From: Trichuris trichiura
Lineage: Eukaryota > Nematoda > Enoplea > Trichinellida > Trichuridae
Length of the DNA: 64,000 nucleotides
Direction of reading: 5' to 3'
NCBI GenBank assembly: GCA_037903355.1
Contig: JBAJFE010000054.1
Coordinates: 186,001 to 250,000, forward strand
The translations under genes were made by a program, and so were the position numbers. Each line of letters starts with the position of its first letter. The stretch's first letter is position 1. Shown piece by piece: positions 15,198 to 53,849 of this stretch. A model generated the notes under the pieces. It was not told where the DNA came from. It was given only the letters and a program-made list of their open reading frames with translations, and searched no databases.

Positions 15198-15238
15198 AAT
15201 GCATTGAACGTCTACACCTTGAACGTCTACGCCTTACC

Positions 15239-16729: not shown

Positions 16730-16830
16730 GCTCCGGAGTTATTTAGCACATTAAACGGGAATACTTCCGTAATAAAACTTTTACATTATGAAAACATACG
16801 CTCCCGTACCAAGAAGCCACATTTTCAAGA

Positions 16831-25506: not shown

Positions 25507-26111
25507 GTCATTGTATTTACAACATTTTTTATACCGGTGTAGGCAGTATAGACTTGGACAGGTCTGAACGCTGGCGGCAGATCAGGTGAGATCAGAAAGC
25601 TACACGAACTAAATAAACGTCTCTTCATAACGGGCAAAAATCTTCCTTAAATATACAGCGGAAAGCACATTTTTTTCAGAAGTACATTGCCTTAAAGACG
25701 AACGTTCTTTGGTGTCTGTTTTCCAAGGAAAGTTGTGGTTGAAGGTTTGAATACCCCTATTGACGAAAATTCGATTAAGACGACATGAGAATTCGAAAGA
25801 GCACATAGCATGCGTAAGCTAAATGTGCATTGGGACGGAAAAGGGCTAGAATGTGCGACAAGTGGTTACTGCTTCAGTTATGTGAGCATACCCTGACGAA
25901 TAATGTTCAATCCCATTGTATCTGTTTAAAGTGTCCTGCGACGAATTCCTGCTGGCAGTGTAAAGTGCATTCAGTACAACAGCTCGAAAAGAAAAAAATA
26001 TATTTGCGTATACCCGGGACAAGAGAGCCTATCCATAACAAATTGGCTTGGATCCAACCTTCGTAGCAAAGACGTTTTCTTTTGTTTACAGAGAAGCCTT
26101 AAAGGCATAGT
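25507..26111. other. 3' flank of the Act1-like gene, with a possible decayed hammerhead repeat
   Basis: Positions 25571-25598 read CTGGCGGC, AGATC, loop, GATCA, GAAA, then GCT. This has the family's spacing with two A-to-G changes in the core and a stem II of about 4 bp. It is probably another relic of the terminal repeat but too degenerate to be sure. No gene was seen otherwise. No upstream 28S flank could be recognised before the R2 element. Confidence 0.3.
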
Positions 26112-27012
26112 GTGCTAGGAATAACTACAAATGGGTTAGTGCACACGGCACAAGGAAGATCTCCTTCATGTGCAGCAAATGCCATCGAACAGAGGCTATC
26201 ATGGCAATCAGCGTCCACTATAGCCGTTGCGGCCGCACAGGAACAAACAACCCCAAGAAAATCATTCCCTGGCTGCCCAAGAAGGTTTCAATCACTAGCG
26301 GGCATGCGGCTGCATGCCAGGTCTCAACACCTGGCGGAGTTCGCGGTCACGCGCCCTACATCGAAACGCTCGCGCTGGGACAAAAAAGAGCAGCACCTTC
26401 TTGCTCAAGAGGAAGCGATTGCACTGTCCACTAATCACCCGCTGCTAACATCAACGTATCCAGCCATCAGGCATTGCGAACTAAATACGGAATCAATAGA
26501 TCAGTATACAGCATCAAACCACGCCGTAAAATGCAACAACACAAACTAGCAGTACAGAAGCTGCTCACCGTAAGACCTAAAGAGCCGGAATGTGGACAGG
26601 ATTATCACAAAGACCCACCTACCACGGCTGTAGAGGAATCCTCCAAGCTAGCAGAGCTGGCGCGATGCCTCAGACCCTAGCACAAGCAAAGCAACAACTG
26701 CCTTCGTGAAGACTATACTCTCGATCCTAACTGGTGAGATTACCCCAGAAACGAAATCGATGCTTATGGATCTATCAGCGGGGTTCCTTACCTCAATGTA
26801 CGCAAAGAAATCTACCCAAACAAGGAAGAGACCCTTAAACCCGGTTAAAAGCACGGCAAAAAAATTCATTTTTCTACAGCACTTATTCCATAAAGACCAT
26901 AAACGCCTGCTCGACATCATCGATGAAAAGGTCTCCCCATTCGAAGGCAACATGAACATCAAGGAGGTCGCAAACATCTTAAGGACTAGGATGAGCAAAC
27001 CGTCGCTGTCCG

Positions 27013-28065
27013 ATGACGAACCGCCGACAAAGTCCAAGCAGCACATCTGTTCCTCTAATTTCCACTAAAGAAGTACAGGAAGCCCAAACAGATCTTCTCA
27101 AGAACTCAGCAGCTGGTTCTGACTTCATCATAGTGGAGGCTGCGAAAGCAATCCCGCCTACTAGCCGCAATATTCAACCTCTGGCTTTTTTCAGAGACAT
27201 CCCTGAGACCTACAAGCGCAGCAGAACTATCCCAGTTCCCAAAGGCGGGATGAAATCATCACCCGCAGACTCCCGCCCTGTCACAATAAGCAGCAACGTG
27301 TACAGGCTCTTCAGCAAGATCATTCACAAACGGTTAGCCTCCTTGGTAGAGCTATGTGACACACAGACAGGCTTCATTACTAACTTCGACGGCCGCACTC
27401 AGAATTTGGTGACACTCCACACCTGCATTCAGGATGCCAAACTCTCTGGCTCGAACCTGTCGATTGCGTTTCTCGACATTGCGAAAGCTTTCGACACTGT
27501 CTCCCACCACAGTATCATCAGAGCGCTGAAGGGCCAGCAAGCCCCTGAAGAATACATCACACTAGTAACCAATCTCCTAGCAAAGGGCAGTACAGTGCTG
27601 GAACTCAGAGACCGGCGAAGCGATCCGATCCGTATACACAAGGGCGTTAAGCAGGGAGATCCCATATCCCCCCTGCTTTTCAACCTGGTCATCGATGAAC
27701 TCCTCGCTCTGCTCCATGACCAGCCCGACCGGGGGTACACCCTGAAACTCACTAACAACGGACAGAATTCCAATGGAGTAGTCGTCGCTCTTGCATTTGC
27801 AGACGACCTAGCGCTCCTCGCGCACTCCAATACCGTCTTGAATCTCCAACTCGAACTTTGCTCCAACTTCCTCGCAAAACGACACCTCCGCCTCAACCCC
27901 GCTAAATGCGCGGTTCTGCACCTAACGCGACCACCGAAGGCCAAGTATTCTTCGGTGCCCTTAGCACCACAAGAAACAATATTACCACTCGACGGACAAG
28001 CAGTCCGCCTCCGCCCACTATCCCTGAGTAAATGCTACAAGTACCTTGGCATACCAATCAACTGA
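27013..28065 (+). pseudogene. R2 reverse transcriptase domain
   Basis: About 350 codons are open in one frame. Seen: SRPVTISSNVYRLFSKIIHKRL (thumb-side fingers block), then TGFI, SIAFLDIAKAFDTVSHHSII (motif A, catalytic Asp), GVKQGDPISPLLFNLVIDEL (motif B), VVALAFADDLALLAHS (motif C, FADD in place of YADD) and HLRLNPAKC. The frame closes at 28063-28065, just after YLGIPIN, and the protein resumes in another frame, so the enzyme is truncated. There is no internal start that would make a complete protein. FADD is a known variant in this clade. Confidence 0.88.
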
Positions 28066-28257
28066 ACTGCGCCGAAGGCAGATGTCAAGTCGACCTTCTC
28101 AAATACCTTGGAGGAAATTGCCAACGCATGACTACGGCCCCAGCAAAAGATTGCCCTAATCCGAGAAAACCTAATACCAAGGTGCATATACCAGCTAAGC
28201 CACCTCAGCCCTCAAAGTACGCTCGCCAGTCAAGTAGACCAGATTATCCGCCAAACG

Positions 28258-29187
28258 GTGAAGCAAAATTTACATCTCCCGGCAACGGCGATCACTGACC
28301 CGTTCCTCCACCTCCCAACCCGACACGGGGGACTGGGCCTCCCGTCCCTTAGCAACGTAACTCGCATCAAGACACTATGGTCTTTCTTGAAGCTATCATA
28401 CTCCCCAAGACCGCTCATGAGAACGATCTTCGAGCATCCAATATCTCAACGAGCAATCGCAGCGCTAAAGTCGCAACTGGGCGTGCAAGCGCTAACATTC
28501 AAAACTCTAAATGCGGCGAAGCGCAGACAGGCAAAACAGCTGGAAGAGCAGCTACATAAGACCAACCAGGGGAGGCGACTAGCCTTCTTCATAGGCAGCA
28601 AGGAGAGCAATGCCTGCCTCGTAGGAAGACTCATGACCGGCCATGCGTTTATCCGGCTCATACAATTACGCACGAACACGGTACCCACAAGGATGGCGCT
28701 GCTACGAGGGTCTCTCAAACTCGCGAGCGAGCAAACCAAGTGCAGACACTGCGGCAGCGACACAGGGCGTTTCGAAACCCTGGCACACGCTGTACAGCAA
28801 TGCCGGACAACCCATGCACTGCGAGTCATACGCCACAATACCCTTGTAAGTCGCTTCAAGGAAGCAGATCTCATTCTACGTCAACGGCTCACCATCATCG
28901 ACATGGCGGTGCCATGGGACTCGCCAGAACGATTTGCAGCCAGCAGGGCATACAAAAGAAGCAAATATGCCGTTCTCGAGTCCTAACAGAAGAAAATGAA
29001 CCCCGGATGCGCGGTAACCGTCGATGCATTCATCGTCGGCGCAAGAGGGCGCTGGGACCAGAAGAACAACAAGGTATTGAAAATCATCGGCATGAAATTG
29101 TCGGACACACAGCGAGCGTCCATGTGCACGCTATTGGCAAAGTTAACTGGAAAAATCGCAGATCACTTCCTAAATACGGAGTGCTAA
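28258..29187 (+). pseudogene. R2 C-terminus: CCHC knuckle and restriction-like endonuclease
   Basis: After a frame change the C-terminal third continues. HLPTRHGGLGLPSL is the block typical of R2 proteins, then CRHCG…ETLAHAVQQC gives the CCHC zinc knuckle near residue 165 of this ORF. LTIIDMAVPWDS and KRSKYAVLES follow, covering the D…D and K…Y parts of the restriction-like nuclease; the expected PD dipeptide reads AD. A stop at 28984-28986 and another frame change lead into VTVDAFIVGARGRWD…LKIIGM, the usual last conserved block, ending at 29187. Inactive. Confidence 0.82.
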
Positions 29188-29475
29188 GTCTGGTGCGCGG
29201 CTAAACTCACCACCCTCACCCGCCCAAGAACCCCCTCGCTGTACCTCCACTGTTGCGATACTCGTTGCATTATCTTTATTAATACCAGTATGATCACTCC
29301 TACTACCTTCTATATTGTCATCACCAGTATTCTCCGAAATTTGTGTATTCTTTCTCATGTTCGGTCCCTTTATACGCACTACGCTCACCGGTCAACTTGG
29401 CTGAGGCCATCGGCGTAAGCAGGTTAACGACCGCCCGCAATATTAGTGCCGATATTGTGGAACAGTAAATTTTGA

Positions 29476-29571: not shown

Positions 29572-29790
29572 CAGAATCAGCGGGGAAAGAAGACCCTGTT
29601 CAGCTTGACTCTAGTCTGACTCTGTGAACAGACATTGAAGGTGTAGCACAGGTGGGAGACCGGTGGGCGCTCGCGGTGCCGTGCCAGCAGTGAAATACCA
29701 CTACTTTGATCGTTTCTTTACTTATTCGGTGAAGCGGAAGGAACGGTCGCTCGCGTGGCCGTCTAACGGCGCGCGACGACTGCCACTTTA
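29476..29790 (+). rRNA. 28S rRNA gene fragment (pseudogene) 3' of R2
   Basis: The sequence TAGCCAAATGCCTCGTCAT begins a roughly 300-bp match to the 3' part of eukaryotic 28S. It includes AGCGAAACCACAGCCAAGGG, CAGCGGGGAAAGAAGACCCT, CTTGACTCTAGTCTGACT and TGAAATACCACTACTTTGAT. About 13-15 bp of a near-universal block after ATTCCTACTGTCT are missing, and several conserved positions are changed. It is therefore a non-functional fragment rather than part of a working array. It ends before the PLE arm at 29808. Confidence 0.92.
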
Positions 29791-29807
29791 TACAGCATGT
29801 AGGTTAT

Positions 29808-30628
29808 CATATTGAAAATATCTTTATTACGGATTCTCTCCCGTTGAGAAGTAAAATAAAAAGATTCTAATACATAAACAGGGAATACTTTAGAACACCG
29901 ATTCCAAGAACACATAAGGAAACTAAACAGTTACAACAATGCAAAAAGTAGCCTACACAATATGCACTCCCCAATACCTCGCCGCGGAAGACCAATATTG
30001 GATCCAACAAAAACCATGGAAAAGGCAATTCAAGCTTCCGCAGTGGTAGAACATGCGGTGAATTGCAAACAGCCCCTCCATCCAAGAGCCCTTTGCTATG
30101 AAAAGTAACCTACACCTAAGAAAACTAAAAGAGGCTCTCTATATTAGAAACAACGTGACTTTCAATCGAAGACCAAGGGGCAGACATTAGTGATTTATGG
30201 ACAAATATCATTACACTCCACAATTGTTGTTCCCTTAATAGTTGACACACAAGCTAAAATCAATGGGAACCTGAAACACTGAAGAAAAATCAAATCACTT
30301 TTTTGGAACAAAGGGATAAAAATTGAAAACGAAACTACAAGGTCGGCCCATGCATTAACCAATTTCTACAAGAATACTGGCAGCTGACAGACACAGATGA
30401 AGAACTTTAAAACTCTCGTTTTAAACGTTGATAAGTGACGGAAGACAAATGTCGTCTCAGTAACCACCACAAACTTCATTGGACCGCTGAAGACGGGTCG
30501 CGGCAGACCCGAAAGCTTTGGAAGGAAGAAAAAATCTTTTTATTTTACTTCTCAACGGGAGAGAATCCGTAATAAAGATATTTTCAATATGAAAACACGC
30601 TCCCGTACAAAAGCATCATGTTTTCAAG
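29808..30628 (+). mobile_element. Second Penelope-like element fragment between inverted terminal repeats
   Basis: A perfect 59-bp inverted repeat (29808-29866 and 30533-30591) brackets a GIY-YIG endonuclease remnant: GNTLEHRFQEHIRKL, PRRGRPILDP and ASAVVEHAVNCKQPL, with a stop at 30107. The C-terminal block continues in another frame to about 30245. A hammerhead-like motif lies at 30487-30514 and the PLE terminal block at 30589-30628 (ctcccgtac…gttttcaa). The RT half is absent. The element lies directly beyond the 28S fragment. Confidence 0.85.
30487..30514 (+). ncRNA. Hammerhead-ribozyme-like motif (PLE copy 2)
   Basis: CTGAAGA, C, GGGTC, loop GCGGCA, GACCC, GAAA. The core is intact with a perfect 5-bp stem II. 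The loop differs from the 16.7-kb copy, so the stem is conserved while the loop drifts. Confidence 0.75.
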
Positions 30629-32789
30629 CATGTAGCTTATAAACTATTGCACATCTGGAGAGTGAGAAGAAATACCCAAAACGAGCAAGAGACTGGTTAA
30701 ACTGGAGCATGTCCTTATGTCCAAGCAGAGACAAGCATGCCTTGGTGAGGTCAAAGCAAAAGGCGGCTATGCGTGCTACCAGAGATGGTATTCACCACAC
30801 GTTACTTTGGGCTAACATCTGTTCGGGTCAACGTAAGATTGCTTGCCTGGAAGGCAGGCCCTCGAGATCAATGATGCCAAAGGAATCGATAGGTCGTTTC
30901 TTTATGTCGGAGTCAGAGCGCATCTGTGAACAACCTTGACATTGATTTGCTGCCAGATCGTTGGTAAAAGGATATCAGTCTTCAAGAAAGTTCTTATAAA
31001 TGAACACTGCTGTTGCGACTTTTTCCTACGGGTATTTTTACCAGTGGTAATACACCTTTTTTTGTCTTTTTGACAAGTTCAGCTTTCGTAAAAAACATAA
31101 GTGCGTTTTTCGCCCATACTTTTCCCAAAACCACACAAGTCTTGTCTCCCGCGGTAAAGGAAAACTGAGTGACGCAAATCACTTAAGACGAAACACATGT
31201 GGACGGATAGCTGAAGAAAATAAAACTTCAAATACGCTTAAGCAAGAAAATGATAGCATTGGCTGCCTTCAATGAATGTTATTCTACGCAGTTGCAAAAC
31301 GATTGTGATTGAAAGCCACGTTGCTAAGCCATGCTGTGCATTCTTTTGTCAGCTCTTTTTGAAGCAAGAAAGTACCTTTTCCTATCCCCCAAAAATTACA
31401 GTATCTCTGAGGTAAAAGTAAGTTAATATATGACTAACGACTATTACCTAATAGGTATCGTTGAATGCTCTTTTTAGCGCTGGAATGACCCGCCTTAGAA
31501 AACGAACCGTTTTCTTTTCTTTTCATTTGCGTACAGAACGGTAGAAATCTTTCTGTCACGTTCAAGCTTGAGCTAAATTTTCTGCATTTCCCTAGTCGAA
31601 TGCGATGGACATCCTGTCCTGTCGCTTCATCCGGACACTGCAGACCAGTGATCGCCGGCCACCTGAGCCTAAGACCAAAACCAAAGCCTGTTGTGAGTAA
31701 ACGTACTACCACTGTTTTTTCGTTTTGACCACACAAGCCACAATGAAAGAGAAACCATTCGACACGGCCATTTGCTTGGCGGCTTAGGGTTGAACATCGC
31801 GGTTGTATTGGGTTTAGTCTCACGTTTAAGCTTAGATTTAGGTATAGGCGCCAAACATAAGCTATGGCAAAATAATCTTGCGCATCAAAACTTCCCGGTA
31901 GTTTAATTTCTGGACTTTACTGCTGACAGGAAGAAGACTTGCGGAAGTTCTTAAGAGACATATGCTTAAATGCCTACCATTCTTCAAAGGTCAGTGTTTC
32001 AAAACTTTTTCCGTAACACTTTTTTATTTTTGAAGGAACAAATAGACAAATTTCAGCGTGTTATCAAATTGTGACGAAGCAATTAACTTTTCCGTGTAAC
32101 TGCTGTCCAAAAATTGAGTTTTTCGGTCTCCGTCCGAAGCGAACAATAATTTCTGATTCGCAGGTTACCTTAAGTGAGAGACGAGTAGTGTTTCCTAGTT
32201 ACAGCCTCAATTAAGCGGTGTTACGGTATTCGTTCATCATTAGTCTGTTAGCGCATGCGAGTTATGGGCGAGCATTGTAAGGTGGATACTTAATCAGCGA
32301 CACCCATCTTGCGGTACTCGTTCAGGTGTTTGTTCAGAGTGAGGTAGTTCGCCTTTTCAATATTGTTTTGACGCGCGTGGCACGTTTTCTTCAAATTGTG
32401 CGATTTACTTCCGCGTTATTTGTTTTGCTGGTATTAGCTGACCTTCAATGTGCTCCTGTGCTCACTTTAGTTGCACATAATCAATAGTTTCTTGAGCCAA
32501 CCATTTCGTCGGCATTTCCGAGACTGTTTGGTCGAGTTTAAATAAATTGGGGACAAGCAAAGCCTGTTTCCCGTCTCCGTACTCCGCGCCGTGAATACTC
32601 CCAACGCGGTCCGGTTTGAGAACTTTGTATGCCTATTTTTTATAGATAGAAAGACGGCTTGTAGGTAACAGCTTGTCTCATCGCGATTCCGTTTTGCAGC
32701 AGTATACGAAGGGCTTGTTTTTGGCCCACTAACGCCGACGGATAAAGGGTTTTTGATACGGAAAAGCTAAGCTTCTTGCAACAGTGAAG
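30629..32789. other. Intergenic upstream of the claudin gene
   Basis: Minus-strand ORFs near 31434-31854 are open for up to 129 codons but match nothing I know. No RNA gene was recognised. Confidence 0.4.
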
Positions 32790-33857: not shown

Positions 33858-34914
33858 ACAGTACGTGAAAAGGAAGATCTGCTTTGCCATTGGACATTCC
33901 GCTTTTATCGATTTTTTCTGATAGTTCGTTTTTATAACATATGTTGGGGTTTCTTCGTTTGCTACTGACGGCTTCTACTTCTATTTAGTCTACGTTGCCT
34001 AGACGTGTAATTATTGTTAAGCCGGCGAGTTATGATTTGAAGCATTGCAATTTGCAATGCGCTTCGCTTCACTGCGGCACTGTTCCACTTTTGTTTATTT
34101 TTTGAGTTGACCGCACCAAATATACGTGAGACACCTCTTTCCGGCTTAGTGATCATTGTGGACGTTGTAATCTCGTTAAAACCTCAGTACCTTTCGACAG
34201 CTTCGTTGCGTTGTTTTTGGACGCGTTTCGCTTTATAGATGAGCTACTTAATGACGCATTCGTTAAACATAACCCTTTCCAGTGCCCTATCTGCAGTTCG
34301 GAATGAGTCTGTTTTCGTGTATCGCTGTTTATTGCTTCAATTAAGCAGTAAATTTGGATTTCAGCCTTCAGAATATGCTCTTAGGCGGTCAAGAGAGAGA
34401 GAGCGGACGCTGAAGCGTCTTGCCCCCGATATATGCGATCGTTTCGTCGTCAACCCTTTTGTTTCCTTAATTGCAGCCAAGATGCAGGAAGCATAGACGG
34501 ATTCTCGTCCCGCTAATCCGGTCCGTTTGCAGTCTATTGATCGTCGGCTAATTCAGTACTTGGCGATTGGTAAAACATTGAATTTCCGACTTCGTTTCTT
34601 CGCACGACGAAGCCCATAGCAAAGCGTTGCGATCACTCGTGCTCAGCAAATTTCGTTAGCGGTGGTGCGGTTGGAAATTTATTCGGGTTTCAGCATTGGC
34701 GAGGCGACGCGACCGTGTTCCACAATGAGAACAAAAACGAATTGCTTATTCTTTCGCCAATGATGAACAGCATGCAGCAAGTTTGGGCTTCGTGATAACG
34801 CCGCTTAAATTTATCTTTCCACTGCGAGTTGACGTAGGTGCTCAAGTTACTCCATTTCATTGACGTAATGATAAATTAACCCGCCAAAGACTGCGTGTTT
34901 TTGAATAATTACAA
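33858..34914. other. Intergenic, no gene recognised
   Basis: Only short unrelated ORFs were seen between the claudin gene and the 35-kb palindrome. Confidence 0.4.
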
Positions 34915-34984
34915 ATGTTTTCATGATGAAGAAATTTATTACTGATGTGTCTCGTTTGTTTTCTATATAAAGAGGCTCCGGAGC

Positions 34985-35012
34985 TTTCGGGTCATTCGAG
35001 ACCCATCATCAG
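34985..35012 (-). ncRNA. Hammerhead-ribozyme-like motif, consensus core
   Basis: On the minus strand: CTGATGA, T, GGGTC, loop TCGAAT, GACCC, GAAA. This is the textbook CUGAUGA core with an intact stem II. Confidence 0.78.
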
Positions 35013-35044
35013 CGGTCTTAAGTGTATATTTACACTTAAGACCG

Positions 35045-35072
35045 CTGATTGTGGGTCTCGAATGACCCGAAA
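35045..35072 (+). ncRNA. Hammerhead-like motif, mutated core
   Basis: CTGATTG, T, GGGTC, loop TCGAAT, GACCC, GAAA. The two core bases G8 and A9 read TG. It is the mirror of the intact motif at 34985-35012. Confidence 0.6.
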
Positions 35073-35172
35073 GCTCCGGAGCCTCTTTATATAGAAAACA
35101 AACGGGACACATCCGTAATAAATTTCTTCATCATGAAAACATATTGTCCCGTACCAAGAAACCACGTTTTCA

Positions 35173-38100
35173 ATTACGAATGTTGTTGAAACAGTGCAAG
35201 GGAGCCATTTCGCACGTCTTGTTGGCTTAAGTAAGATACCGAATTTCCCACTTAAAAAAGATCGTTTGTGATGTAGTGTGACTAAGGCAATAAATGGAGG
35301 ATTGCCATGCTTCACTTAAGAAGCGTTGAAATGATCACTGCAAAGGAATAAGGTAGTTGAAAGCAAAGCCGCTTATGCGCCATTGTTTTCCATTTTTGCT
35401 CTAGGCTTTGGCAACCCACACAAAGCGTGAGGAACATCGGAAGGTTGCCGCATGATAACAAGCGTTCCCTGTCTACTGGATTCGACTGGCACGAACGAAC
35501 CCCCGCGTCAACGCGAGACGCAACTGAGACATTTCTCTATATATTAACTGTAACAACTGTTGTATATACAATCCTGCTTGAATAATTAGCTATTTGCTCC
35601 TCATATAGTTGCCAGCAGTTCATCTCCTTTATGATGCATAGTAATAATGTATCCCAAAGAACGAATTGCCAATTATTTACTCTTCGCTGGTAGTAACAAT
35701 GAATTAGCGCTCACGTGATGTCTTCAGTGTTAGGAGGTTTCGAAGAAACTGTCCTCGAAGAATTTAAGCGTACTGCATGAAGCCCGGTTGGTCCATCGTC
35801 ACAGTGAGCCAATAATTCAACAAAGCATTTGGTGCACCCGCAAATTACGTCAACGTTTTTGTACTTTCCTAGTTGCAGTAAAGCCATTTTTATTAACTTA
35901 GACAGACCGATAAATGGATTGGAAATTCGTTTGCCTATATCTAAGCGAGCTAGGCAAAATGATTGAAATTTCGCGCTCATGTTTTAGATATTTGTTATTT
36001 GAAATCTGCAGAAAATCATTATAGTTTTATTTGAACTCCTTATGTCATCTTACTAAGATGTTGTAACTTTTATGTTGCATTGCGTTATGTTAGACGATGA
36101 GACTTTTCTGTTCGAATTTTTTCTCCCTGTCCGAAGTGAAATATTCGTTTCTCGAAAGGTAGCAGATATGCAAAAATTAAATTTGTTGGAACACAAAAGC
36201 TACAAATGACTATTGTTTTCTATGCCAGTTGGTGGACGAAGTCTTGCGTGCACAGCAACGGCATATCAGCCTGATTTCGTTATTTTGCTTAGTTGCCAAA
36301 AGTACCTCCCGGGTTGCCAATCGCTACGTGCCGGCTTGGGTGCCACATGGAAAGGGTTCGCATAGTGACCTTTGCTTGGTCAGTAAATACTACGCTCCAT
36401 CATGTATTCGACTTCCTTTTTGGCAGCCGCGTACTTTTGTGGCTCTAGCCTTCAGGCTCTGGAGATGACTGAACTTCCGTTGGTTATAATGCTATCGACC
36501 ATACTGTGCTTTGGTTTCTCGGTGGTTCTCAAGGGCTTTGTGATCTTGAAAACTCAAATACGATCCCATGATATCAACTGCTGTCGCTGACAGTTCTCAG
36601 CCAGTTCGCTCTTTAGTTCATCGAGGGTCCCTTGGCGCTTAGCAAAGTAATATTGTCCACCAGTTTCCTGTTCTTTAGGTCTGGAAGTAAGCAAAATTTG
36701 CCGACGCATTAATCTAGTTCTACACGTATGCATATCCGTATTGTTGGCGGCATATAAGTTGTACGATGATAGACAGGGTTTGATATCGGCTAAGGATGGC
36801 TAGATATCCGTTCTGGTATCAGTCATGTACCTAACTTTTTCGGCTGACAGTCTGTTATGAAAAGGCAGGAAAGTCGCTGCATGACCGCTGGCTAGAGAGT
36901 TGCTAAGCCCAGTTTTCTGAAGAGTTGCTGCCTTGAAATTGCGTAGTGGTGAACATTTCCTTGCATTCGCCTGGAACCGATTACGATAGTAATGCCAATT
37001 TGAATTTTGCTCTAATCATGGTGATTGAACGAAGCGACATTGGGTGCTGTTAAAAGACGAACGATGACTCTGAGTTAGATGTCTTCTTTCTACATGACAC
37101 TAGGAAATGATGTGGTCTGGGGCGGTTGATGGTAGGGTTATTGACGAAACGAACACGCTGGTAAATAAGTGGAGTTCATCACCGAGTCGTGCAAGCTTAT
37201 CGAAATCGCCTTCATCGGCCTTGCGGCAAGCGGGTTTGCACGTTGGTTATTTATCGAAATCCAAAGTTGATGAACGATAGCGATGACATTGCCAACGTTA
37301 GTACGTACTTCACTAAGCATCCTTTGCAACAATCGCGACGGTTTATTATCTCTGATTTGCACACCATACAACGACTTAGAGCTGCTTTTGAACGCACTCG
37401 CAGATCGATATAGTATACATCGCTTTAGTGCTTCATATTTTCCTTCGAGAAGTAGATTCTCATCTATATGAAAATATTGCTCCAAAACAGATGTTCAATC
37501 CTCCAATAACAATCCAGTCGAACCTTGATTCGTGAATTTTTATCCAGTAAATTTGGAACTGGGCTCTCAAACTACCAGGCTCCTGAAGAACTCTTGAATA
37601 AGGGAAGTTGGACAGCAGCAGACTCGGTATACAGGTACACAGACCGCTTCACGCATTCTGAGTGTGTGAATGCTTAGTGTTCGAGCAACACAATAGGCTG
37701 TTAATCTTGTTCACAAGTCGTTTCAAAAAACGCTTCATGGCACGTGGCTGTGTCATCTTTTTGTTTTTCCATAATGCATTGACAGCAGCTCATTCCAAAA
37801 CACAGTTGGTGAATCACCATTTCATGAATCCGAATTCAAACTTTCAGTTCAATGAAGAGATGCAAATTTTTTGCATGCGCTCATAACGCTTACTTCTCAT
37901 TTGCCCTTCACTTTGCTTCCTTTTTGGCAACCTAATAATCTTCAGTTAAGCACAATTTCCTGTCTTCGTCACATGCAGGAAAGAAATCAACTTGATTCTT
38001 GCGAAACTTAATTTGCGGTTGCTTCGAAAGGCATTCTGCCCCACCTCCAGCGTGTATGTTAGACGCTGAATTCCCGTTGCGAAGTTGTCCATGCTCGATT

Positions 38101-38334
38101 ATACTAAAGATCGGTAAAAGTGCAACATTCTTTGGATTCTTTTTTCGAAAGCACTGGTTTGCAAATAAAGAAGTCTTTAGCTAATAAGAGAAAATACTCA
38201 TTTCAAATTAATACCGCAAACTATGAAAATCCAATGATAAAAGGTGAGCATCTAACTACGCACAGTGAAGCTAAACAATGACGCTCACCGCAGCAAGGGC
38301 TCTCTGCAGATTAACTTATATAACATATCTGAAG
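35173..38334. other. Intergenic/repeat-derived, no gene recognised
   Basis: Several ORFs of 60-115 codons occur on both strands, without known domains or splice-supported continuation. Confidence 0.4.
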
Positions 38335-38486
38335 TGGTTGTAAGGTCTTCTATGGCTTTTCCCGTTTTTTTCTTTGTGCTGTTATCTGTAATTAAACTAA
38401 AACAACTGCTCTACCAACGGATGGATGAGCCGTTATTAAGAAAATGTACAGATATCAATACACTCAACTTTTTTAATGTTCAAAGC

Positions 38487-38514
38487 TTTCGGAACGCTCT
38501 AGTTCCGTCGTCAG
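38487..38514 (-). ncRNA. Hammerhead-ribozyme-like motif
   Basis: Minus strand: CTGACGA, C, GGAAC, loop TAGAGC, GTTCC, GAAA. Core and stem II are complete. Confidence 0.75.
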
Positions 38515-38531
38515 TGAGCTCCACCGCCTCA

Positions 38532-38559
38532 CTGACGACGGAACTAGAGCGTTCCGAAA
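38532..38559 (+). ncRNA. Hammerhead-ribozyme-like motif
   Basis: Plus strand: CTGACGA, C, GGAAC, loop TAGAGC, GTTCC, GAAA. Identical to its mirror at 38487-38514. Confidence 0.75.
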
Positions 38560-39129
38560 GCTTTGAACATTAAAAAAGTTGAGTGTATTGATATCTGTAC
38601 ATTTTCTTAATAACGGCTCATCCATCCGTTGGTACCGCAGTTGTTTCAGTTTAATTACAGATAACAGCACAACGAAGAAAACAGGAAAAGCCGTAGAAGA
38701 CCTTACAACCATGAAAATACAGCCCGTTACAAAACACCCCGTTTTCAAAAAACATATCTGAAGGTCGTTATCAAGTAACTTTACATGGACGTATGCCCTA
38801 CTCTCCTTCATTACTGCTTTCTTCTGGATAACTTTTCAACGAAAATACACAAAACGATATCGTCACTATTCAATACCTAAACATGCTCAGGGTTGGCTAC
38901 AGTACTCATGAATGATGCGAGACGTCACCCTGTCCAAGCTGCTAGTAGCTTAGGTTTGTACTTGCTGAAATTTTGTTTTTCTTAATCGTAATATCAGTAC
39001 TTTTGTCCATAAAAAATATTTAACTTTCTAAACATTATTTCGTCTTTTTTCTGGTCTTTGTCAGCTATTGAGAAACAAACTCTGTAGAATTCAGTGACTT
39101 TATCGTTCTTCTTTAACGTATTTCTGTAA

Positions 39130-39447
39130 ACCTAGCAAACAAGTGTTGTACTAACAGATGGATGAAGAGTTGTTTGTCAGATCCGGATTATGCGTCATCT
39201 TTTTAAACTAGAGCTTTTGGAAGACTAGTCCGTCGTCTCGAGCGACTTTCTCCAGCTTGCTGACCATAGAACTAGAGAATTCTTAAGTCTTCGATTTTCA
39301 AGTGTTGCTCTGAATTTTTCGTAATAACTATTCATCTATCCTTTGGTAGAAAATTTGTTTCGTTTCGTCGACCACGAACGGGAACTGTTCTCGAGTAAGA
39401 TCAGAAGAAATGAAGAGCAATCCCTGTGCAAACCATCCTGTTTACAG
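39130..39447. repeat. Decayed copy of the GGAAC foldback element
   Basis: Recognisable in order: acagatggatgaagagttg (left arm block), a scrambled centre with ctgaccatagaactagag, attcatctatcctttggtag (the mirror block), and a worn terminus tgaagagcaatccctgtgc…catcctgtttaca. Both hammerhead cores are lost. Confidence 0.6.
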
Positions 39448-39671
39448 ACCTCGCAGGCACATTTTCCCATTCTCATTGCTTTTAGACTTGTTTCTTCCCG
39501 TAACAGACTTAGCTAAGGCAAAATTCCACTTAGTTTTGATCTTTATGCCTACATTAGGTTTTATTTGCTAACCTTTGTGGGGCTAAGTTGGATGGAGGAA
39601 ATGGACGCGTAGTACCTGCTAACTTGTCTGTTTTATATATCTATTTCGTTCTGGAAGTTTCCAGCTGTGAT

Positions 39672-39702
39672 GCAGAGAGGGGGAGAGAGAGAGAGAGAGA
39701 GG
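39672..39702. repeat. (GA)n microsatellite
   Basis: A run of about ten GA dinucleotides inside a purine tract, just upstream of the MetRS gene. Confidence 0.95.
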
Positions 39703-39862
39703 GCCTTCTGCGGCATGACTAAAGGCATTTAACCTAATCTTTTTTTTTAGATTGCCACTAGGAATATGGAAGATAGAAAGAAAGATTGTTCTCCGCGAAA
39801 TAGACTTCATCCAACGTATTTTGTTTTATCGGCTAACCAGGATTCTCATTCCGCTGTTTCAG

Positions 39863-42800
39863 GGTGCCAGAGGCAGGCAAGCGCAACATACTCATCACTT
39901 CGGCCCTTCCTTACGTTAACAACGTGCCGCACCTTGGTACAATAATTGGATGCGTCTTGAGCGCTGATGTGTTTTCTAGGTATGTCTTCACGCGTCACGT
40001 TCAAGTGCAAAATGCTATGGCATACCAGTCATTGTTCGTGGACATATTCTTTCTGAGCAAGCCATTTGCATAACAGACCTTTTCACAAGTTTTCACCTAA
40101 CCTTCTAAAGGCAGCTTAGTCGTTTTGCTTCTACTGAAGCTTCAGCGCTTATGAAATGCGTTTACACCGTACACGAGCAAAGTTATCCCGCAAAGTTGCA
40201 GAAAAGTAAAAGTATTTAGCCATTGTAGTGGCTTGTGTCCTAAGAAAAGCCGGCAAACTAAATGCATGTATGCCACGCGGAAAGGATGGTCCTAGTATGC
40301 ATATGTAATTATGCGTATTAGATTTATCCCTTCCGCGCATGTCTCGCTGTCCACTCTTCTAAAGCGCCAAAAATATTTTTGTGTGCCGTTTGGCATAGGA
40401 AATTAAAAGTATAGGATTTTGGCAAGTTTATGCCCTAGGATGAAATGGGTAATGTTGACAAGAAGTGAATGTGTAGCCGTCTTACGCACTCGGATGTGCG
40501 TTATTGCTAATCAGCGTTATGCACCTGAAAATGGGATCATAAACATTTTTCCTGGAAAATATGTAAATTCAATTCATCCTAAGAAAGTCCTATTTCGACA
40601 AATACTTTTATTATGTTAATAACTGCGCTTCATGCTCGGTACATTTATCGTTAGAAGTCAGAATTTCGCGTTTTTCTATGTTGCACAAAGTCTGCCAAAT
40701 AAGTATGTGGCTAACCAGTAGCACTTAAAACGTTGATGTTATCATTTCTGACTTGTGTTCTTACGCTTAGGTACTGTCGGTTGCGTGGCTTTAATACCTT
40801 GTTTATTTGCGGTACTGATGAGTACGGGACGGCAACAGAGACGAAAGCCATTGAAGAAGGTGTAACACCTTTGGAGATCTGCAATAAATATTACAAACTT
40901 CACAAAGATGTGTACGAATGGTTCAACATCGAATTTGACTATTTCGGGAGAACGTCGACTGAAAAGCAAACTGCGTAAGTGGTTGCTGTTACCTTATATT
41001 AGTCCCTCCTTTCACTCCGTATATAACCTAATTTGGCGTTTCGTAATCATTTTACTTGTATTCAGTTTTTTGCCCGCTTATTTGGAAGTGTTGATAATTC
41101 GCTGAATGTTGTAGCAAAGTGTTTTGTCTTTTAGTGTGGTTCCGTTCGATTGTATTAGTATATTGTGAATCCAAAAGAACTGCCATGTGTTCGTTGTGCC
41201 TGAGCAGTACACCTTCTTTTAGAATCGTCCAGGACATTTTCAACAAACTACATTCAAACGGGTACACTTCGACCAAATGCGTGGACCAGCTGCATTGTTC
41301 TACATGCAATCGGTTAGCTGTTGTTCAATGTCTTCGTCAATCTGTACGTTGCATATGCAGATTTCTCGCCGACCGTTTTGTCGAAGGTGAATGTCCATTT
41401 TGCTCTTACCATGACGCTAGGGGTGACCAGTGCGACTTGTGTGGTCATCTCATAAACGCCCCAGAGTTGAAAAACCCTAAGTGCAAGCTGTGCCATCAAA
41501 CTCCAACTTTACGAAGTTCAGAACATCTGTTTCTGGACTTAGCCAGAGTATACATGTTTTAAGCAGACTAAAATAGATGGTTTTTATTGTTAGCTACAAC
41601 CCAAAGTAGAGGCGTACTTGCAGAAGCTCTGGTCAGACGGAGCCGTTTGGAGTAGCAATGCCATTGCCATAACTAAGGGATGGTTGAACGATGGATTGAA
41701 AGAACGATGCATAACAAGAGACCTGAAATGGGGAACTCCGGTTCCTTTGGAACAATTTGCCGATAAAGTTCACTTCAGATAATAATCAAATCTCTATTTA
41801 ACGCTGTACTATGAAGGTTTTCTACGTGTGGTTCGACGCTACCATCGGTTATATTTCAATAACTGCGAACTATCTTGCCGATAATTGGAAGGATTGGTGG
41901 ATGGGAAAGGAGAAGGTTTTTTCTTTTCACAAGATGTACGCATTTTTAAAGTTTCCTTTCCCAAGGTTGAATTGTATAACTTCGTCGGTAAGGACAATGT
42001 ACTTTTCCACAGCATTGTTTTTCCTGCGACTCTGTTGGCTACTGGTCAGCCTTACACAATGGTCAGCCATATTTCAGCCACAGGTATACGTTAATGGTTA
42101 ATCTTGGTGAACAACAAGTAATTCTTTCGCAGAGTATCTCACCTACGAGGATACAAAGTTTTCGAAAAGCCGCGGTATAGGAGTGTTTGGTACGGATGCT
42201 CAAGAAACCAGTATACCTGCTGACATTTGGCGATTCTATTTGCTTTACATACGACCTGAAACTCAAGATTCCTCTTTCAATTGGACCGACTTTGCGCTTA
42301 AGGTTAACTCTGAACTTTCCAACAATCTTGGCAATTTTATCAACAGGTATACCATACCGCTGCGATTCTGTGTTTGCAAGCATTTTTACTTGTTAAGGAC
42401 ACTGTCGTTCCTATCAAAGAACTTTGATGGCATTGTAGCAAACATTTCCGTTGAGGATCACCGTGAACTTGCCGATTGCATTTCGGAGGAGATCAGGGCG
42501 TATTTAGACAATATGGAAAATTTAAGGCGAGCCAGGGTGACTATTTGGCTGTTATTTTTTTTTACAAACGTCCTTATTAGGTTTCGCGATTCAATTCGTT
42601 GCATATTGAATATCAGCCGCTTGTGCAACCACTTTATCCAGAGCTCTCAGCCGTGGGTCCTAGTTAAAGGTTCCGCCAGTGAAAGGTTTCGAATGAATTG
42701 CATTCTGAAAATTGTCTCACGCTACCGTTTATAGAAGCAAAGCAGCCGGCTTGATCAGTCTGGCCGTTAACGCCATAGCTGTTCTGGAGCCGTTGCTGCA

Positions 42801-45800
42801 ACCATTCATGCCGGAAACTAGCAAAGCCATTAGGTCACAGCTTAACGTGGAGAGCTCGGAACTACATGACAGTTTTAAAGTAGTTTTGAAGCCTGGACAC
42901 GTCATTGGGCAAGTAGGCTACTTAGCTGAGCCTATACATTAGGACAGATGCGAATTCTTTTTAAGGTTTCTCCACTTTTTTCAAAGTTTGAAAATGATCT
43001 TGTGGAAGTGTATCGCGAAAGATTTCGTGGAGATGCACAGGTTGTTGTTGGAGATGGCGGCAAGAACGGCGTAAAGGTATGTCGTTCTATGATCATGTTT
43101 GAAAAATAATTTTGAAATGTAATCTACCTTTCTGCGTTTTATTTTTGTAACCATGCCAATATTATCAAGAAGCATATAATTTATTCACGTTAAAATTGCT
43201 GACGATATTAGACCACTTTTTTTACCTTAAAAGACTCCCAAAATCGTTTTATTTGTTTATTGTCGTCGATTATCTTTTGCTGGGATGTGTGCGGGTAGTT
43301 CAAATCGTACTGTAGTTAATTGAGCTGTTGTTCAAGTACATTAGCTTTTTCGAATTCCCGTTTACTTTGTCGGTGTAAATGGCGTTATATAATTGCTCAT
43401 CTTTTAAAAAATGAATAAGCTATACTGCGTATGACCTACAGTTACTGTGAGATTGCAAAGTTATGGATTGAATAAACATTCTGTTTCCAAACTGCTCGTT
43501 TAATGCTTATTTTTAATGCAGTCCAAGCAAGTCCAGGCAGCTCAGACGATCAAACAGATGAAGACGTTAGAGACGGAAATAAAGAACGCTGGAATGCCGA
43601 GCAGGAAAGGTTTGGAAGCCAATGCGGACGTAAACGGCTCCCTAAGTGATTCAACACTGAACGATGTTATCATTGAAACCACTGGTATGTATATCGCTTT
43701 CGTCATAATTTTTCGGAAATAATAAGCTGCTGCCGTAGAAACTATCGTCCAGTGTAAATAAGAGCATGATCTTCCTGGTAGTCAGTTACCCGTATTTCGT
43801 TCCTTTTTGTCTTAATTACTGTAAACTTAGTTTTCCAAGTGCATCTTTAAGCGCGGAAAGAGCGATTGTATGAACAGTTGCTCTATATTTTAAAAATGCA
43901 TTGAAAAGTTATCATTTGTCTTTGGGCGGCTAAGTCACGAATAATTTTCAGGTGTAAGAGCACTTTGAATTACATTAATTTCTCCTTTCAAAACATTCCA
44001 AGGCAACTTCGAAGCACCTATCGCAAGAAGGGTACTTATATTTTTCAACTTAATAAAGTTCTTCTCTTTCTTCCGGTTCTACTTGCAATTTTGACGGTAA
44101 TTGAATAATTCTAATATCGTTGGACATTTGAAATCAGGGATTTATTTCAAAATAACTACATCCAGATGCAGGAATTGTCATACATACAAGGGTTGTTCGA
44201 AAAGTTCCCGAAAATTGGCAGTAGAGACTAACGGAGTAGCGGTTTTTACTGTAACTACAGTAAAACCTCCCTAATCCGACCCTCCATAATCCGAATCCCT
44301 CTAATCTGCACTCGTGGAAGAGAGCAATAGAACGACCGTATACATTAAAGATAATTATGCTACCTGTGAACGGACAGTCACTTGGCGGCAACGGCTATAA
44401 GGGCAGCAAACAACCAGCTAGCAATCCTTTGGGCGTACGTTAACATAGGCGCAGATCAGCCACAGCTCTACCGAGTCAATCTCGACCAATAAGTTGACCG
44501 CAGCAAGGCACCTCGAGACCTAGGTTCCCCAAATAAACAGAAATTGTGGATCTAAAACTTGATGTTTTTTAGTCGTATAAAACTAAAATCTGTTCTTGAA
44601 CACAGGGTGCTTCGTAACGGGATGGGATTTCATAGTGTATGGTCTTCTACGGCTTTTCCCGTTTATCTGTTGTGCTTGTATCTGTAAATTAGACGAAACA
44701 GTTGCTCTACCAACGGACGGATGAGCCGTCATTAAGAAAAATTGTACAGATGTCAATGCACTCAACTGTTTAATATCACGGAGCTCCACCACCTCACTGA
44801 CGACGGAACTAGAGCGTTCCGAAAGCTCTGATATTAAACAGTTGAGTGCACTGACATCTGTACTATTTTTCTTAATAACGGCTCATCCGTCCGTTGGTAG
44901 AGCAGCTGTTTCGTCTAATTTACAGATACAAGCACAACAGATAAACGGGAAAAGCCGTAGAAGACCATACACTATAAAATCTGTTCTCGTATAACGCAAT
45001 GATCAGCCTCTAACTCAATTCGTTTTTGAGCCAACAGAGCTGGCCAGCAATTACGAATATGGAAAAATAAGTTCATGTGAACTATTTCCCGTGTCGCTTC
45101 ACGGTACAGCGTCCACACCATTTAAGAAACTGGTTTCTGCTAGTCAGTCGTTTTCCTTGATCAGACGGACTTCGCTGCGCTCGTTAAGCTATTCACGGCT
45201 TGCGGAGACTGACATCACGCTGTAGACGCCAGGAACATGCATCTAAAATTGAATTACCTGCTTTTCTGTCGCTTACTGTAAGCCTCCTCCATGATCCGAA
45301 TTTTTCCGTAATCCGAACTACTTTCTTCCCCGACGCGTTCGGATTAGGGAGGTTTTACTGTATTATCTGACTTTCAATGACACTCTAGTCCATTAGTAAC
45401 ATTAGGTGGATGATATTAGCTTGAAAGAATTCACAATGAAAAGTTCACACGTCTGGTCTGTTGAGGCATTCTGCAAATAGGTGCCAGGAACCCTTAGTTA
45501 ACCGCTTTTTAAGATTGTAAACGTTTTGCAAACTTCAAAAATCTTCTCATTCCATGCGATCCAGGAAGTTGAATAGACTGAGATGCCCATGATTGGGACA
45601 ATGGAGGTTCCATGGAGTGGGCTAAGGGAGCACCTCTTTAAAAGTATTTGGCATTTCAGCGTATGACCACTTAGCTGCTATGCTTAAGTCGTTTGAAGAA
45701 TTGGGATTCCAATTGAAGGAGCGAACTAATGAAATGAAGCGGTTGAAATCAAGTATCCAATCAATTGGTAGGATAAACGACGGGTAAATGCCCAAATTGA

Positions 45801-46787
45801 GTGCGGCTTATTTTAGAGACCAAATTGTTTTCCAAGATTGAAAAGCAGTTGGAACAAGACCATGAAATGTTACGAAGGGAACTAGCCAAAAAGCAAGCGG
45901 AATATTTTAACGTCACCGGCAAAAAGAATTTCATCACGGGTAGTCATCATATGTTTGACGTCTATCTAATTTATTTTGTTTGAATTTCAGGGGCTCAAGT
46001 GGGCTCCACAACGGTCAAGGTTGAATCGGGCAAAAAGAATGAATCAACTGAGTTGAGACAACAAGCATTGGCTAGTTCTAAAGCCGAAGTGACCTTGTCC
46101 GAAGAGAAAACCAAGGCCAAGCCAAGTAAAACAAAGCAACATGCGGGCGAGGAAGTTGCTCTGGATTTCAGCCGCTTAGATGTCCGTGTTGGTTTAATTA
46201 AGACAGCTCGCAAACATCCAGATGCCGATTCTTTGTACGTGGAAGAGGTAGATGTCGGCGAAGGTAAACCGCGAACGGTGATTTCTGGTTTGGTCAATTT
46301 TATCCCGGTTGATCAAGTGCGTTGGATAGTGTATTGGCTTAAAGTTTTATTCTTTGTCTGTTAAAGATGCAAAATCGCCCTGCCGTGCTTTTGTGCAATT
46401 TAAAGCCCGTAAAAATGCGCGGCATCGAATCTCAGGCTATGGTCTTGTGCGCTTCAACAAAGGAAGCGGTTGAAATTTTAGAACCACCTGCTGGAAGTGT
46501 ACCTGGTGATCCTGTCATATGTCCTGGATACGAGGGTAACGGATGTGAATATTTACGCATTTCCTTTTTCAAGCTGACCTTGTTTGTCCTTTTACTTCGA
46601 GTATGCAGTAGTTAATTTAGGCATACCAGAAAAACAGTTAAACCCGAAGAAAAAGGTTTGGGAGGCTGTCCAGCCATCATTGCGTGTGGATTCTGATGGG
46701 CGTGCGTGCTTTAAATGCACCCCTTTGCAGGTTGCCGGAAAAGGTGAAATATTGGCCCCCTCTTTGCGAGAAGTGCCAATCAAATAG
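39863..46787 (+). CDS. mars-1: Cytosolic methionyl-tRNA synthetase with C-terminal EMAPII domain
   Basis: Charges tRNA-Met. About 18 short exons give roughly 930 aa; the first recognised exon (39863-39979) begins behind a splice acceptor, so a short 5' exon is missing. The catalytic core has [18 protein letters not shown] (the HIGH motif as HLG), [16 protein letters not shown], zinc-knuckle cysteines ([28 protein letters not shown]), [20 protein letters not shown] and [12 protein letters not shown] (KMSKS motif). The helical anticodon domain includes [16 protein letters not shown]. After a coiled-coil linker (exons 45660-45767 and 45817-45939) comes an EMAPII/Arc1p-like tRNA-binding domain: [44 protein letters not shown]. 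The phases of exons 43522-43684 and 45660-45767 match, so this is one fused gene, as in C. elegans, rather than MetRS plus a separate AIMP1. The join 42536/42581 is one base out of phase. The 43685-45659 intron hosts transposons. Confidence 0.93.
44187..44217 (+). repeat. Solo mariner terminal inverted repeat
   Basis: The sequence ggttgttcgaaaagttccc matches the inverted ends of the mariner at 53850-55104. No transposase or second end is found nearby, so it is a fragment left in the MetRS intron. Confidence 0.7.
44588..44990. repeat. Foldback element with one hammerhead-like motif (subfamily GGAAC), nested
   Basis: Arms of 146 bp (44633-44778 and 44829-44974) surround a 50-nt loop. The complete terminal block is on the left this time (mirror of atgaaatcccatcccgttac…gtgttcaag, 44593-44633). 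The loop holds one plus-strand motif, while its minus-strand partner is absent, so this copy is a deletion relative to the 38-kb palindrome. Confidence 0.9.
44797..44824 (+). ncRNA. Hammerhead-ribozyme-like motif
   Basis: CTGACGA, C, GGAAC, loop TAGAGC, GTTCC, GAAA. Identical to both 38.5-kb motifs although the surrounding arms differ. Confidence 0.75.
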
Positions 46788-52592: not shown

Positions 52593-53759
52593 CAGTCGGC
52601 CCTCGTTATCCGCGGTTAATTCGTCCAAAATTTTCAACGTTTTACCACGTTATTAAGATACCCTACGAAAAAGGCCAAATAGCTTATATTCTAGGCGCAT
52701 ATTTCGTCCTGCCCCCCTGAATTCCCTCCGCAACGGTTATCATACCTAATGATCCTTCGAAGCTTGGTACTACAAAACCCAGCTACGAGATGATGACGTC
52801 AATGAGACTGCGCTTGTCCAGTGGGGTTAGCCATCAGGGTTCAGGCCATTAGATACAAGAAAGGATGAAAGTAAGATTCACTTTCTCTAAACTAGTGGGA
52901 ATCGCCAATGAGCTAAGCGATGTACTGGTGCGCGGAATGGGTACAGCGCAGGGGAAATATAAAATACGTAGGCGCACTTAAGCAAAAATAGTGAACACCA
53001 CACAGAACACGTCTGCATAGAGCGAAATGTTTATGGTAGAAACGTTTAGCGCATCAGGAATCAATTTACCCATTTTCTGTACGTGGGCGCAGATTCCCTG
53101 GAGACCGACCAGTCCTGAGGTTTCTTGAACTTGTTGATAGCGAAACTTCTCGTCTTAAAATGTTAAGCTCTGCAGCTGCCGGTGCTTTATCTAAAAACAC
53201 TGTTATACGGAATTGTCTCTCCCTTTTTTTCGCTTCGTCGAATAAATCCTGCAGCGGCTTCAGCGAACTCGTTATTCCTCGTGTAACCATAATGCCACGT
53301 TCCATGGATAGAACGCATTCAGCAATCATAGCTTTCAGGACCTGAGCTTGCCAGAAAATACTGGCAAGCTTTTGCAGCGTCCAATCGGAAGGTGTTTATG
53401 CTCCTATATCTTCCATAACGTAGTCGTCGCTGCCCGTAGGTGACTGCATCAGTTACTCGAGTTCCTCGTTGGTGAACGGTTTTCCACAAACTTCTATGCG
53501 CTCTCTGATATCGTCTTCTATTATGTCGGAGAAACCCTCACCTCCCAACTCCTTGGCAATATTCACTTATGTCCATGACCTCCTCATCGATGGCACCTAA
53601 GTCCGCGCATTCACTGACTGCGTCCTTTCCACAAACGCTTCCAGCAACCACTGACTGTTCTAGGCGTTATCTCGTATACTGGTGTGTAAAAGATGACGTC
53701 ACTATATCACGCCGGACAAGCCGCGTTGTGCAGAACCCGCAGATGACGAGGGCCGACTG
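52593..53759 (-). mobile_element. Tigger/pogo deletion derivative (1.17 kb)
   Basis: The ends CAGTCGGCCCTCGTTATCCG and its near-mirror (CAGTCGGCCCTCGTCATCTG on the minus strand) are flanked by TA on both sides. The interior, read on the minus strand, keeps only the C-terminal part of a Tigger transposase with stops and frame changes: DDIRERIEVCGKPFTNEELE, LMQSPTGSDDY and later AMIAECVLSMERG. The catalytic core is deleted. It is a different Tigger subfamily from that at 2.5 kb, to judge by the termini. Confidence 0.85.
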
Positions 53760-53849
53760 TATTCGTAATATCGAGTTTCTCTACGGCACGCGTGCAGCAT
53801 GCCACAAGGATACTACAGATGGTATAAATACATCCCACGGGCAAGAATA

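Follow-up and report, generated by a model that had tools for sequence, protein, structure and literature searches.

Ribozyme-bearing palindromes of Trichuris trichiura as head-to-head ends of a Penelope-like element

Described systems and the whipworm palindromes

To our knowledge, the way in which Penelope-like elements (PLEs), relatives of telomerase, insert into genomes is largely unknown, and their inverted pseudo-long terminal repeats (pLTRs) with a one-sided tail are a puzzle. Adineta vaga Pen2a and other Penelope elements have head-to-head pLTRs, palindromes at the junction, and target duplications of 8 to 10 bp; one inverted pLTR carries a 31-bp tail, and solo pLTRs have unrelated sequence in between (PMC3846280). 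In vitro, the anole PLE PAc cleaves and extends both strands, and it initiates internally at two neighboring sites, which mark the limits of the tail (PMC11167929). Here, we describe palindromic foldbacks in a 64,000-nucleotide stretch of the Trichuris trichiura genome (the window; bases 186001-250000 of the contig labelled C10 in an assembly of 72.7 Mb and 62 contigs). Judged by sequence, each of these palindromes is a head-to-head pair of pLTRs of an abundant GIY-YIG PLE.

The whipworm palindromes share with the Pen2a-type elements head-to-head pLTRs, a tail on one pLTR of the pair, palindromes at the junction, and target duplications. Pen2a-type pairs enclose an open reading frame (ORF) or captured DNA and are of low copy number, whereas ORF-less pairs that meet at the mRNA start are common in the whipworm; the whipworm duplications are mostly 12 to 14 nt long and not 8 to 10 bp, and the breakpoints point to two cDNAs, in contrast to the self-priming suggested for the Pen2a type (PMC3846280). 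As in PAc, a tail appears to be bounded by internal initiation near the ORF start, with a hammerhead at the pLTR-ORF border, but PAc starts 111 to 118 bp into the ORF, whereas the whipworm tail measures about 36 to 41 nt; the main text of the PAc study uses the word "inverted" a single time, of inverted dT, and thus seems not to deal with inverted pLTRs (PMC11167929). The ribozyme resembles the small dimer-forming PLE hammerheads of Lunse, Weinberg and Breaker in its PLE association and its very short self-complementary stem III; those lack a proper stem III and are said to act as double hammerheads (PMC6466107). Animal and plant retrozymes are likewise non-autonomous retroelements with hammerheads (PMC7229834, PMC4918200). 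The whipworm units differ from retrozymes in being inverted and bounded by ORF-start positions and in having cDNAs that seldom stop at the ribozyme cleavage site. Retrozymes have directly repeated hammerheads and circular RNA. A retrozyme-like tandem was seen on contig C1, in which three hammerheads of one type (2085522, 2085997, and 2086472) follow one another in direct order at a spacing of 475 nt.

A preliminary description of the window knew of no described family of head-to-head ribozyme palindromes of this kind. PLEs were already known to have hammerheads, a tail on one side, and inverted pLTRs, and the head-to-head plan is itself a PLE feature (PMC3846280); the ORF-less form in such numbers and the insertion footprint appear to be new. 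Among open-access titles and abstracts, a set without the key PLE-hammerhead papers, we found no description of ORF-less hammerhead-bearing PLE palindromes or of two-ended priming inferred from footprints.

Palindrome arms and their source

The palindromes are real inserted units. The long inverted arms reported earlier for three good elements were recovered at lengths of 112 to 184 nt (38335-38711, 184 nt, 96% identity; 44617-44990, 162 nt, 94%, with a 50-nt spacer; 34915-35142, 112 nt, 96%), and each element has the expected terminal block, or tail, at one end only (Table 1). Target duplications of 11 to 13 bp flank all three. That of the 38335 element was found by script, and those of the 44588 and 34915 elements were spotted by eye and then positioned by search, the exact-match script having missed the duplication that contains a mismatch (34915; both copies merged, TTAC[A/G]AATGTT). 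Opposed hammerhead cores, also part of the preliminary description, are intact on both strands in the 38335 element; the right-hand core of the 34915 element reads CTGATTGT in place of CTGATGAT, and the 44588 element has a single core. In the latter element, the tail-less (N) arm extends further inward than the tail-bearing (T) arm, and the inverted symmetry of the T arm stops opposite the predicted hammerhead cleavage site (between 44828 and 44829). This exact coincidence of the 44596-44828 symmetry end with the cleavage site looks as if one template had been ribozyme-cleaved, but it was met only once and no excess over chance is shown.

Two other stretches that had been placed on the same plan, 23199-23640 and 39130-39447, are indeed relatives, one diverged (inverted arms of 87 nt and 78% identity at 23205-23631) and one decayed (two stretches with 71 to 76% complementarity to the 38335 arms). 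No target duplication was established for either; the cores of the former are decayed, and a search of the latter allowing 3 mismatches found no hammerhead core. A fourth element on the plan of the good ones, at 29795-30640, has the duplication GCATGTAG[G/C]TTAT, an N arm from about 29808, a hammerhead at 30487-30517, and a tail at 30589-30627.

The window also holds a PLE copy at 14702-16828 with RVT_1 and GIY-YIG domains (Pfam), which has a hammerhead and tail of the same type as the palindromes; no target duplication was found at its ends. The best matches of its protein come from two other whipworms, Trichuris suis (68% identical across 75% of the query, and a further short match of 85% over 29%) and T. 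muris (51%). A genome-wide PLE search gave 3138 first-look candidates, of which 104 were scored, and these matched. Within the reverse transcriptase (RT) part of the ORF of the window copy lie two near-perfect short foldbacks (15118-15204 and 15239-15351, with 40- and 53-nt arms and 7-nt loops), which are perhaps template-switch products.

Three genomic loci (L012, L021, and L030) have an arm and tail that read through into the ORF. In L021, the pLTR, tail, and RT ORF are joined, and the ORF, although interrupted by stops, shares motifs with the window RT (e.g., PELYGLPKIHK and SYDVKDLF). Because of this read-through, the arm can be assigned to the 5' end of the PLE mRNA (start-site region, small hammerhead, and 5' untranslated region [UTR]) and the tail, called a Penelope-type block in the preliminary description, to the opening ~13 codons of the ORF, both identifications being shown by sequence comparison.

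The inner ends of the arms were placed on a 38335-family reference (q positions; ends taken from BLAST). Of 76 inner ends in this family, 29 fall at q-7 to q-10 (15/38 in tailed and 14/38 in tail-less arms), and this peak lies ~30 nt downstream of the first T of TATATAA as counted on the reference. A distance of ~30 nt from the TATA box is usual for a start site. Upstream sequence is kept in long copies (CTATATAACACC, 102 matches with at most 3 mismatches), and the TATA box of these copies is not reached in 34 of 38 one-tail pairs (exceptions: L005, L010, L015, and L030). A cap copied into cDNA is expected to add a G. Genome-wide, the base preceding CTCCACCACCTCACTGACG is G in 69, C in 105, A in 17, and T in 9 cases; in the fetched loci, the base before the start site is C in 14, T in 2, and G in 1 of the 17 promoter-keeping rows (the G row, L003, is probably misclassed) and G in 23, C in 11, T in 2, and A in 2 of the other 38. 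No TATA motif was found within 75 nt upstream of GGG-type hammerheads, and the start-site argument is therefore restricted to the 38335 family. A role of ribozyme cleavage in setting the template ends was considered and rejected, as no excess of ends is shown at that site: 1 of the 76 inner ends lies near it (q36-38; L041, a few bases off by eye), next to the one exact case in the 44588 element. The single end among 76 suggests that few templates were cleaved.

Table 1. Coordinates of PLE-derived features, counted from the first base of the window
Feature	Position	Strand	Detail
PLE copy	14702-16828	+	RT and GIY-YIG ORF to 16559
PLE copy, hammerhead	16702-16732	+	followed by 5'-UTR-like stretch
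PLE copy, tail	16788-16828	+	
Old diverged member	23205-23631		78% arms, two decayed cores
Fourth element	29795-30640	+	PLE ORF fragment between arms; plan as in the three good elements
34915 element, left target duplication	34909-34919		TTACAAATGTT
34915 element, N arm	34920-35026	-	intact hammerhead core 34982-35012
34915 element, T arm	35031-35132	+	altered hammerhead core 35045-35075 (CTGATTGT)
34915 element, tail	35133-35173	+	PLE ORF start (MKTYCPVPRNHVF)
34915 element, right target duplication	35174-35184		TTACGAATGTT; 1 mismatch
38335 element, left target duplication	38322-38334		AACATATCTGAAG
38335 element, N arm	38335-38518	-	inverted PLE pLTR: 5' UTR and hammerhead
38335 element, hammerhead core	38484-38514	-	
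38335 element, junction	38519-38527		CTCCACCGC; read as start-site end of right arm
38335 element, T arm	38528-38710	+	hammerhead and PLE 5' UTR
38335 element, hammerhead core	38532-38562	+	
38335 element, tail	38711-38749	+	first 13 codons of PLE ORF
38335 element, right target duplication	38751-38763		
Decayed relative	39130-39447		heavily decayed relative of 38335 arms
44588 element, left target duplication	44585-44595		AAAATCTGTTC
44588 element, tail	44596-44633	-	ORF start, on the left, reversed
44588 element, T arm	44634-44778	-	without ribozyme core
44588 element, N arm	44784-44975	+	reaches start site (CTCCACCAC at 44784)
44588 element, hammerhead core	44797-44827	+	single core
44588 element, right target duplication	44976-44986		

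The insertion footprint and its explanations

We examined 61 loci of the 38335 family, of which 43 contain a head-to-head pair; the 18 without a pair were not counted, and from the window these statistics take in the slice 38000-40000 only, the 44588 and 34915 elements being left out. A direct repeat of at least 10 nt within 22 nt of the arm ends was present in 31 of the 43 pairs (one of them, L024, sits in a (TTA)n run) and in 0 of 2510 shuffled pairings. The repeats range from 10 to 16 nt, and 22 of the 31 are 12 to 14 nt long. All 31 duplication-bearing pairs have exactly one tail (17 right, 14 left); over the 43 pairs, by the BLAST criterion, 38 have one tail, 3 have two, and 2 have none. 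Outside the 38335 family, 9 of 19 pairs have repeats of at least 12 nt, each with one tail by offset. An inverted arm lies within ~2.5 kb upstream of 12 of 20 ORF-bearing loci, and 3 of these 12 have a duplication of at least 10 nt. The view, given in the preliminary description, of PLE-mobilised, non-autonomous, hammerhead-bearing units in many copies, with the Penelope block on one arm, is supported.

The arms of a pair differ in reach and agree in source. The tail-less arm is longer inward by at least 5 nt in 8 of the 38 one-tail pairs (L005, L007, L024, L041, L085, L089, L091, and L102), or in 7 without L005, the arms of which extend past the reference. At four common variant sites, the two arms are discordant in 9 of 97 comparisons, against 47.8% expected, and 0 of 5000 permutations were as low (28 of 32 pairs; L029, L088, L092, and the 44588 pair were omitted as too diverged). 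Random pairing of two RNAs is thus rejected, and both arms mostly derive from one source subfamily within an element, while the subfamilies differ from element to element; in the exceptions L018 and L041, the arms are mixed at a linked pair of common source sites. The two arms of an element diverge by 2.8% on average (32 pairs), compared with 4.5% between elements (mean of medians). Junctions coincide with the start site, stem II, AAGC/GCTT, or palindromic tips. The tight centres, which are of two types (16 and 42), are scattered over many contigs; 14 distinct strings occur among the 16, one triple and one pair are shared among the 42 (by eye), and 6 of the 42, which belong to 34915-type families, are perfect palindromes. 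Most palindromes therefore look newly made at insertion, since their centres mostly differ and their subfamilies vary between elements.

These features are best explained, with a probability that we put at about 0.7, if the foldbacks are PLE insertions in which nothing but the mRNA 5' end was captured, by two-ended target-primed reverse transcription. In this scheme, the element protein would make a break with ~13-nt 3' overhangs, and both 3' ends would prime internally on one RNA species, one of them at the tail end and its partner at the start codon. From there, each cDNA would run up to the capped 5' end or halt early, and the two same-sense cDNAs would be joined head to head via short self-complementary stretches (hammerhead stem II, AGCT, or palindromic tips) or filler. 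ORF-bearing copies would result if a cDNA, on reaching the mRNA 5' end, switched to a different PLE RNA or if a longer transcript were read. The single tail might reflect sequential use of one RNA, with the tail already in hybrid, but this is a guess. Individual loci fit parts of this scheme. In L008, the tail-less strand was extended, folded at stem II, and copied over q24-q57, followed by a purine run and then by the tailed arm; the N strand therefore possessed a 3' end of its own. Upstream of CACCAC, L002 and L020 do not follow the promoter type; in L020, this stretch reads by eye as PLE coding sequence, which we attribute to a template jump where the mRNA 5' end was reached. The two arms of L033 (1193-1531) share a (TAA)n and non-PLE flank, which suggests that both were copied from a read-through RNA. 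The scheme also agrees with the in vitro behavior of the anole PLE, which cuts and extends both strands from neighboring internal starts (PMC11167929).

The leading alternative, which we regard as unlikely, is snap-back, in which one tailed cDNA folds over at its 3' end (e.g., at the stem-II hairpin), copies itself back, and stops before the tail; it resembles the self-priming that Arkhipova and colleagues proposed for Penelope palindromes, there on an antisense template (PMC3846280). Several observations weigh for such a fold and against two-ended priming. Junctions lie at the stem-II hairpin, where a self-priming cDNA would fold, in L093, L097, and L101, and at AAGC/GCTT or AGAGC/GCTCT in L094, L096, and L100. 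The tailed arm is the longer one in 16 of 38 one-tail pairs, as copying back also predicts, and the shared source variants of the arms are equally well compatible with it. Two independent initiations do not predict the strict one-tail rule, and the anole PLE start sites show no strand difference (PMC11167929). Other points bear on the strength of the footprint itself: the loci were picked by best match to a tailed arm or tight centre and are non-random; 12 of the 43 pairs have no repeat of at least 10 nt (7 one-tailed, 3 two-tailed, and 2 tail-less); and the extra-G signal is partly confounded with GAGC/GCTC junction overlaps. In only 10 of 32 pairs is the left arm most closely related to its own partner, and the within-pair distance is no greater than any other distance in 8 of 32, so that the copies are too alike for individual arms to be traced.

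Other observations tell against the fold-back of a single cDNA. A copied-back strand should continue through the tail into target DNA, but two tails occur in 0 of the 31 duplication-bearing pairs; the N arm is the longer one in the 8 pairs listed above and also in the 44588 element; the arms of L018 and L041 differ at linked source sites; and in L008 the N strand itself was extended. Self-priming does not readily account for the longer tail-less arms, and since the longer arm can be of either kind, simple snap-back does not explain every pair; the footprint, read from sequence, favors two-ended priming.

Quite improbable, in our estimate, is a palindromic master family whose members are transcribed into hairpin RNA and mobilised again in one piece, which is close to the preliminary proposal of a family spreading via a hairpin transcript with a ribozyme on each strand. 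Some centres are common to several loci, a further point against formation at each insertion: one is shared by three loci, GTGAGCTCCACCGC is common to L006 and the 38335 element, and L006 seems to hold part of an older palindrome centre. A few palindromes may thus have been copied or duplicated as units. The centre strings are nevertheless mostly different instead of sharing a junction, the common centre of L087 and L091 has tails on opposite sides and hence two origins, and several source subfamilies have palindromes of their own. The TATA region of long copies is, moreover, missing from the 34 pairs noted above, and the ribozyme core would be buried in the predicted duplex (see below), and the hairpin-transcript proposal is rejected as the general case; lacking a promoter, most of the palindromes would be dead from the outset.

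Long mirror repeats can come from whole-genome amplification or long-read folding, but such an assembly or library artefact is hardly credible here, given that the arms are often non-identical, that 31 of 43 pairs lie between their own target duplications, against 0 of 2510 control pairings, and that tight centres of two types are so widely spread. A foldback or miniature inverted-repeat (MITE-type) DNA transposon with incidental PLE sequence would account for long inverted repeats, target duplications, and the lack of an ORF, but it is equally far-fetched in view of the asymmetric outer ends with a one-sided tail, the varying duplication length (10 to 16 nt) and inner breakpoints, and outer ends that fall inside the PLE, at its start codon and at codon ~13, and are not terminal repeats.

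The small hammerhead, neighboring features, and significance

The hammerhead core pattern (CTGANGANGG..C..G..CCGAAAGCT) has 2,636 exact matches in the genome (1336 forward and 1300 reverse), and the reversed pattern, used as a control, has 0. Among the matches listed for contig C1 to 1.12 Mb, we counted 57 cores, with 10 head-to-head neighbors less than 1 kb apart and 0 tail-to-tail. The putative ribozyme lacks a stem III except for a self-complementary AGCU, and it has an additional base between A9 and stem II (alignment column 13; window position 16709), which is C in 23 of the 24 aligned sequences and T in the other. These 24 representatives were drawn from 46 distinct sequences, all picked by the core pattern, which by selection fixes the core and 3 of the 8 stem pairs (all in stem II). 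Across the eight pairs, 95.8% of cells are paired (83.3% in shuffles), 22 cells are altered on both sides (4.3 in shuffles; 0/500 shuffles), and the covariation score is 0.398 (0.140 in shuffles; 0/500); sliding the stem partner by one column lowers pairing to 57.3% or 38.5%. In this alignment, the pairs left free to vary in stems I and II covary, although the number of pairs with two-sided change, 4 against 2.9 in shuffles (126/500), is unexceptional.

The Rfam hammerhead models, which had been suggested as a check, gave no match in the whole window at the gathering threshold and none in 34000-46000 at an E value of up to 10; hammerheads this short may lie outside these models. Matches to microRNA and small-RNA models in 34000-46000 had sub-gathering scores and were taken as chance hairpin matches. 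For transcripts of whole palindromes, the predicted minimum free energy is -314.6 kcal/mol (38335) and -197.7 kcal/mol (34915), and a hairpin RNA from either is predicted to hide the ribozyme core in a long duplex.

Several other features lie near the PLE sequences. An ORF at 26103-29204 has an RVT_1 domain and looks R2-like by eye; downstream of it follows a fragment (29609-29863) with a match to the model of eukaryotic large-subunit rRNA, and the PLE insertion at 29795-30640 sits at the end of this fragment. Exons of a methionyl-tRNA synthetase gene lie within 39900-46400 (Pfam tRNA-synt_1g at 41098-41559 and 42111-42731), and the 44588 element is, by eye, inside an intron of this gene. The ORFs at 3546-4433 and 53509-55043 resemble, by eye, pogo-type and mariner-type transposase fragments; Pfam gave no match on 54648-55040, the sole transposase-like piece searched.

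The whipworm genome offers many minimal PLE insertions, 43 pairs of which were examined here; single events can be read from their ends, duplications, and junctions. These insertions put the 5' end of the template near a TATA-box start site. They also call for caution, as ribozyme palindromes in genomes may be by-products of integration and not hairpin RNAs. Beyond these insertions, we suggest tentatively, at somewhat less than even odds, that PLE integration is a symmetric, two-ended reaction. In it, the two 3' overhangs of a staggered break would act as primers, each reverse-transcribing the capped 5' end of the same mRNA from one of two adjacent internal sites; the self-complementary hairpin of the ribozyme would provide DNA homology for joining the two identical cDNAs, and the ORF would be transferred only if the cDNA switched template at the mRNA 5' end. 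If this is true, inverted pLTRs with one-sided tails would be the default product of PLE integration.

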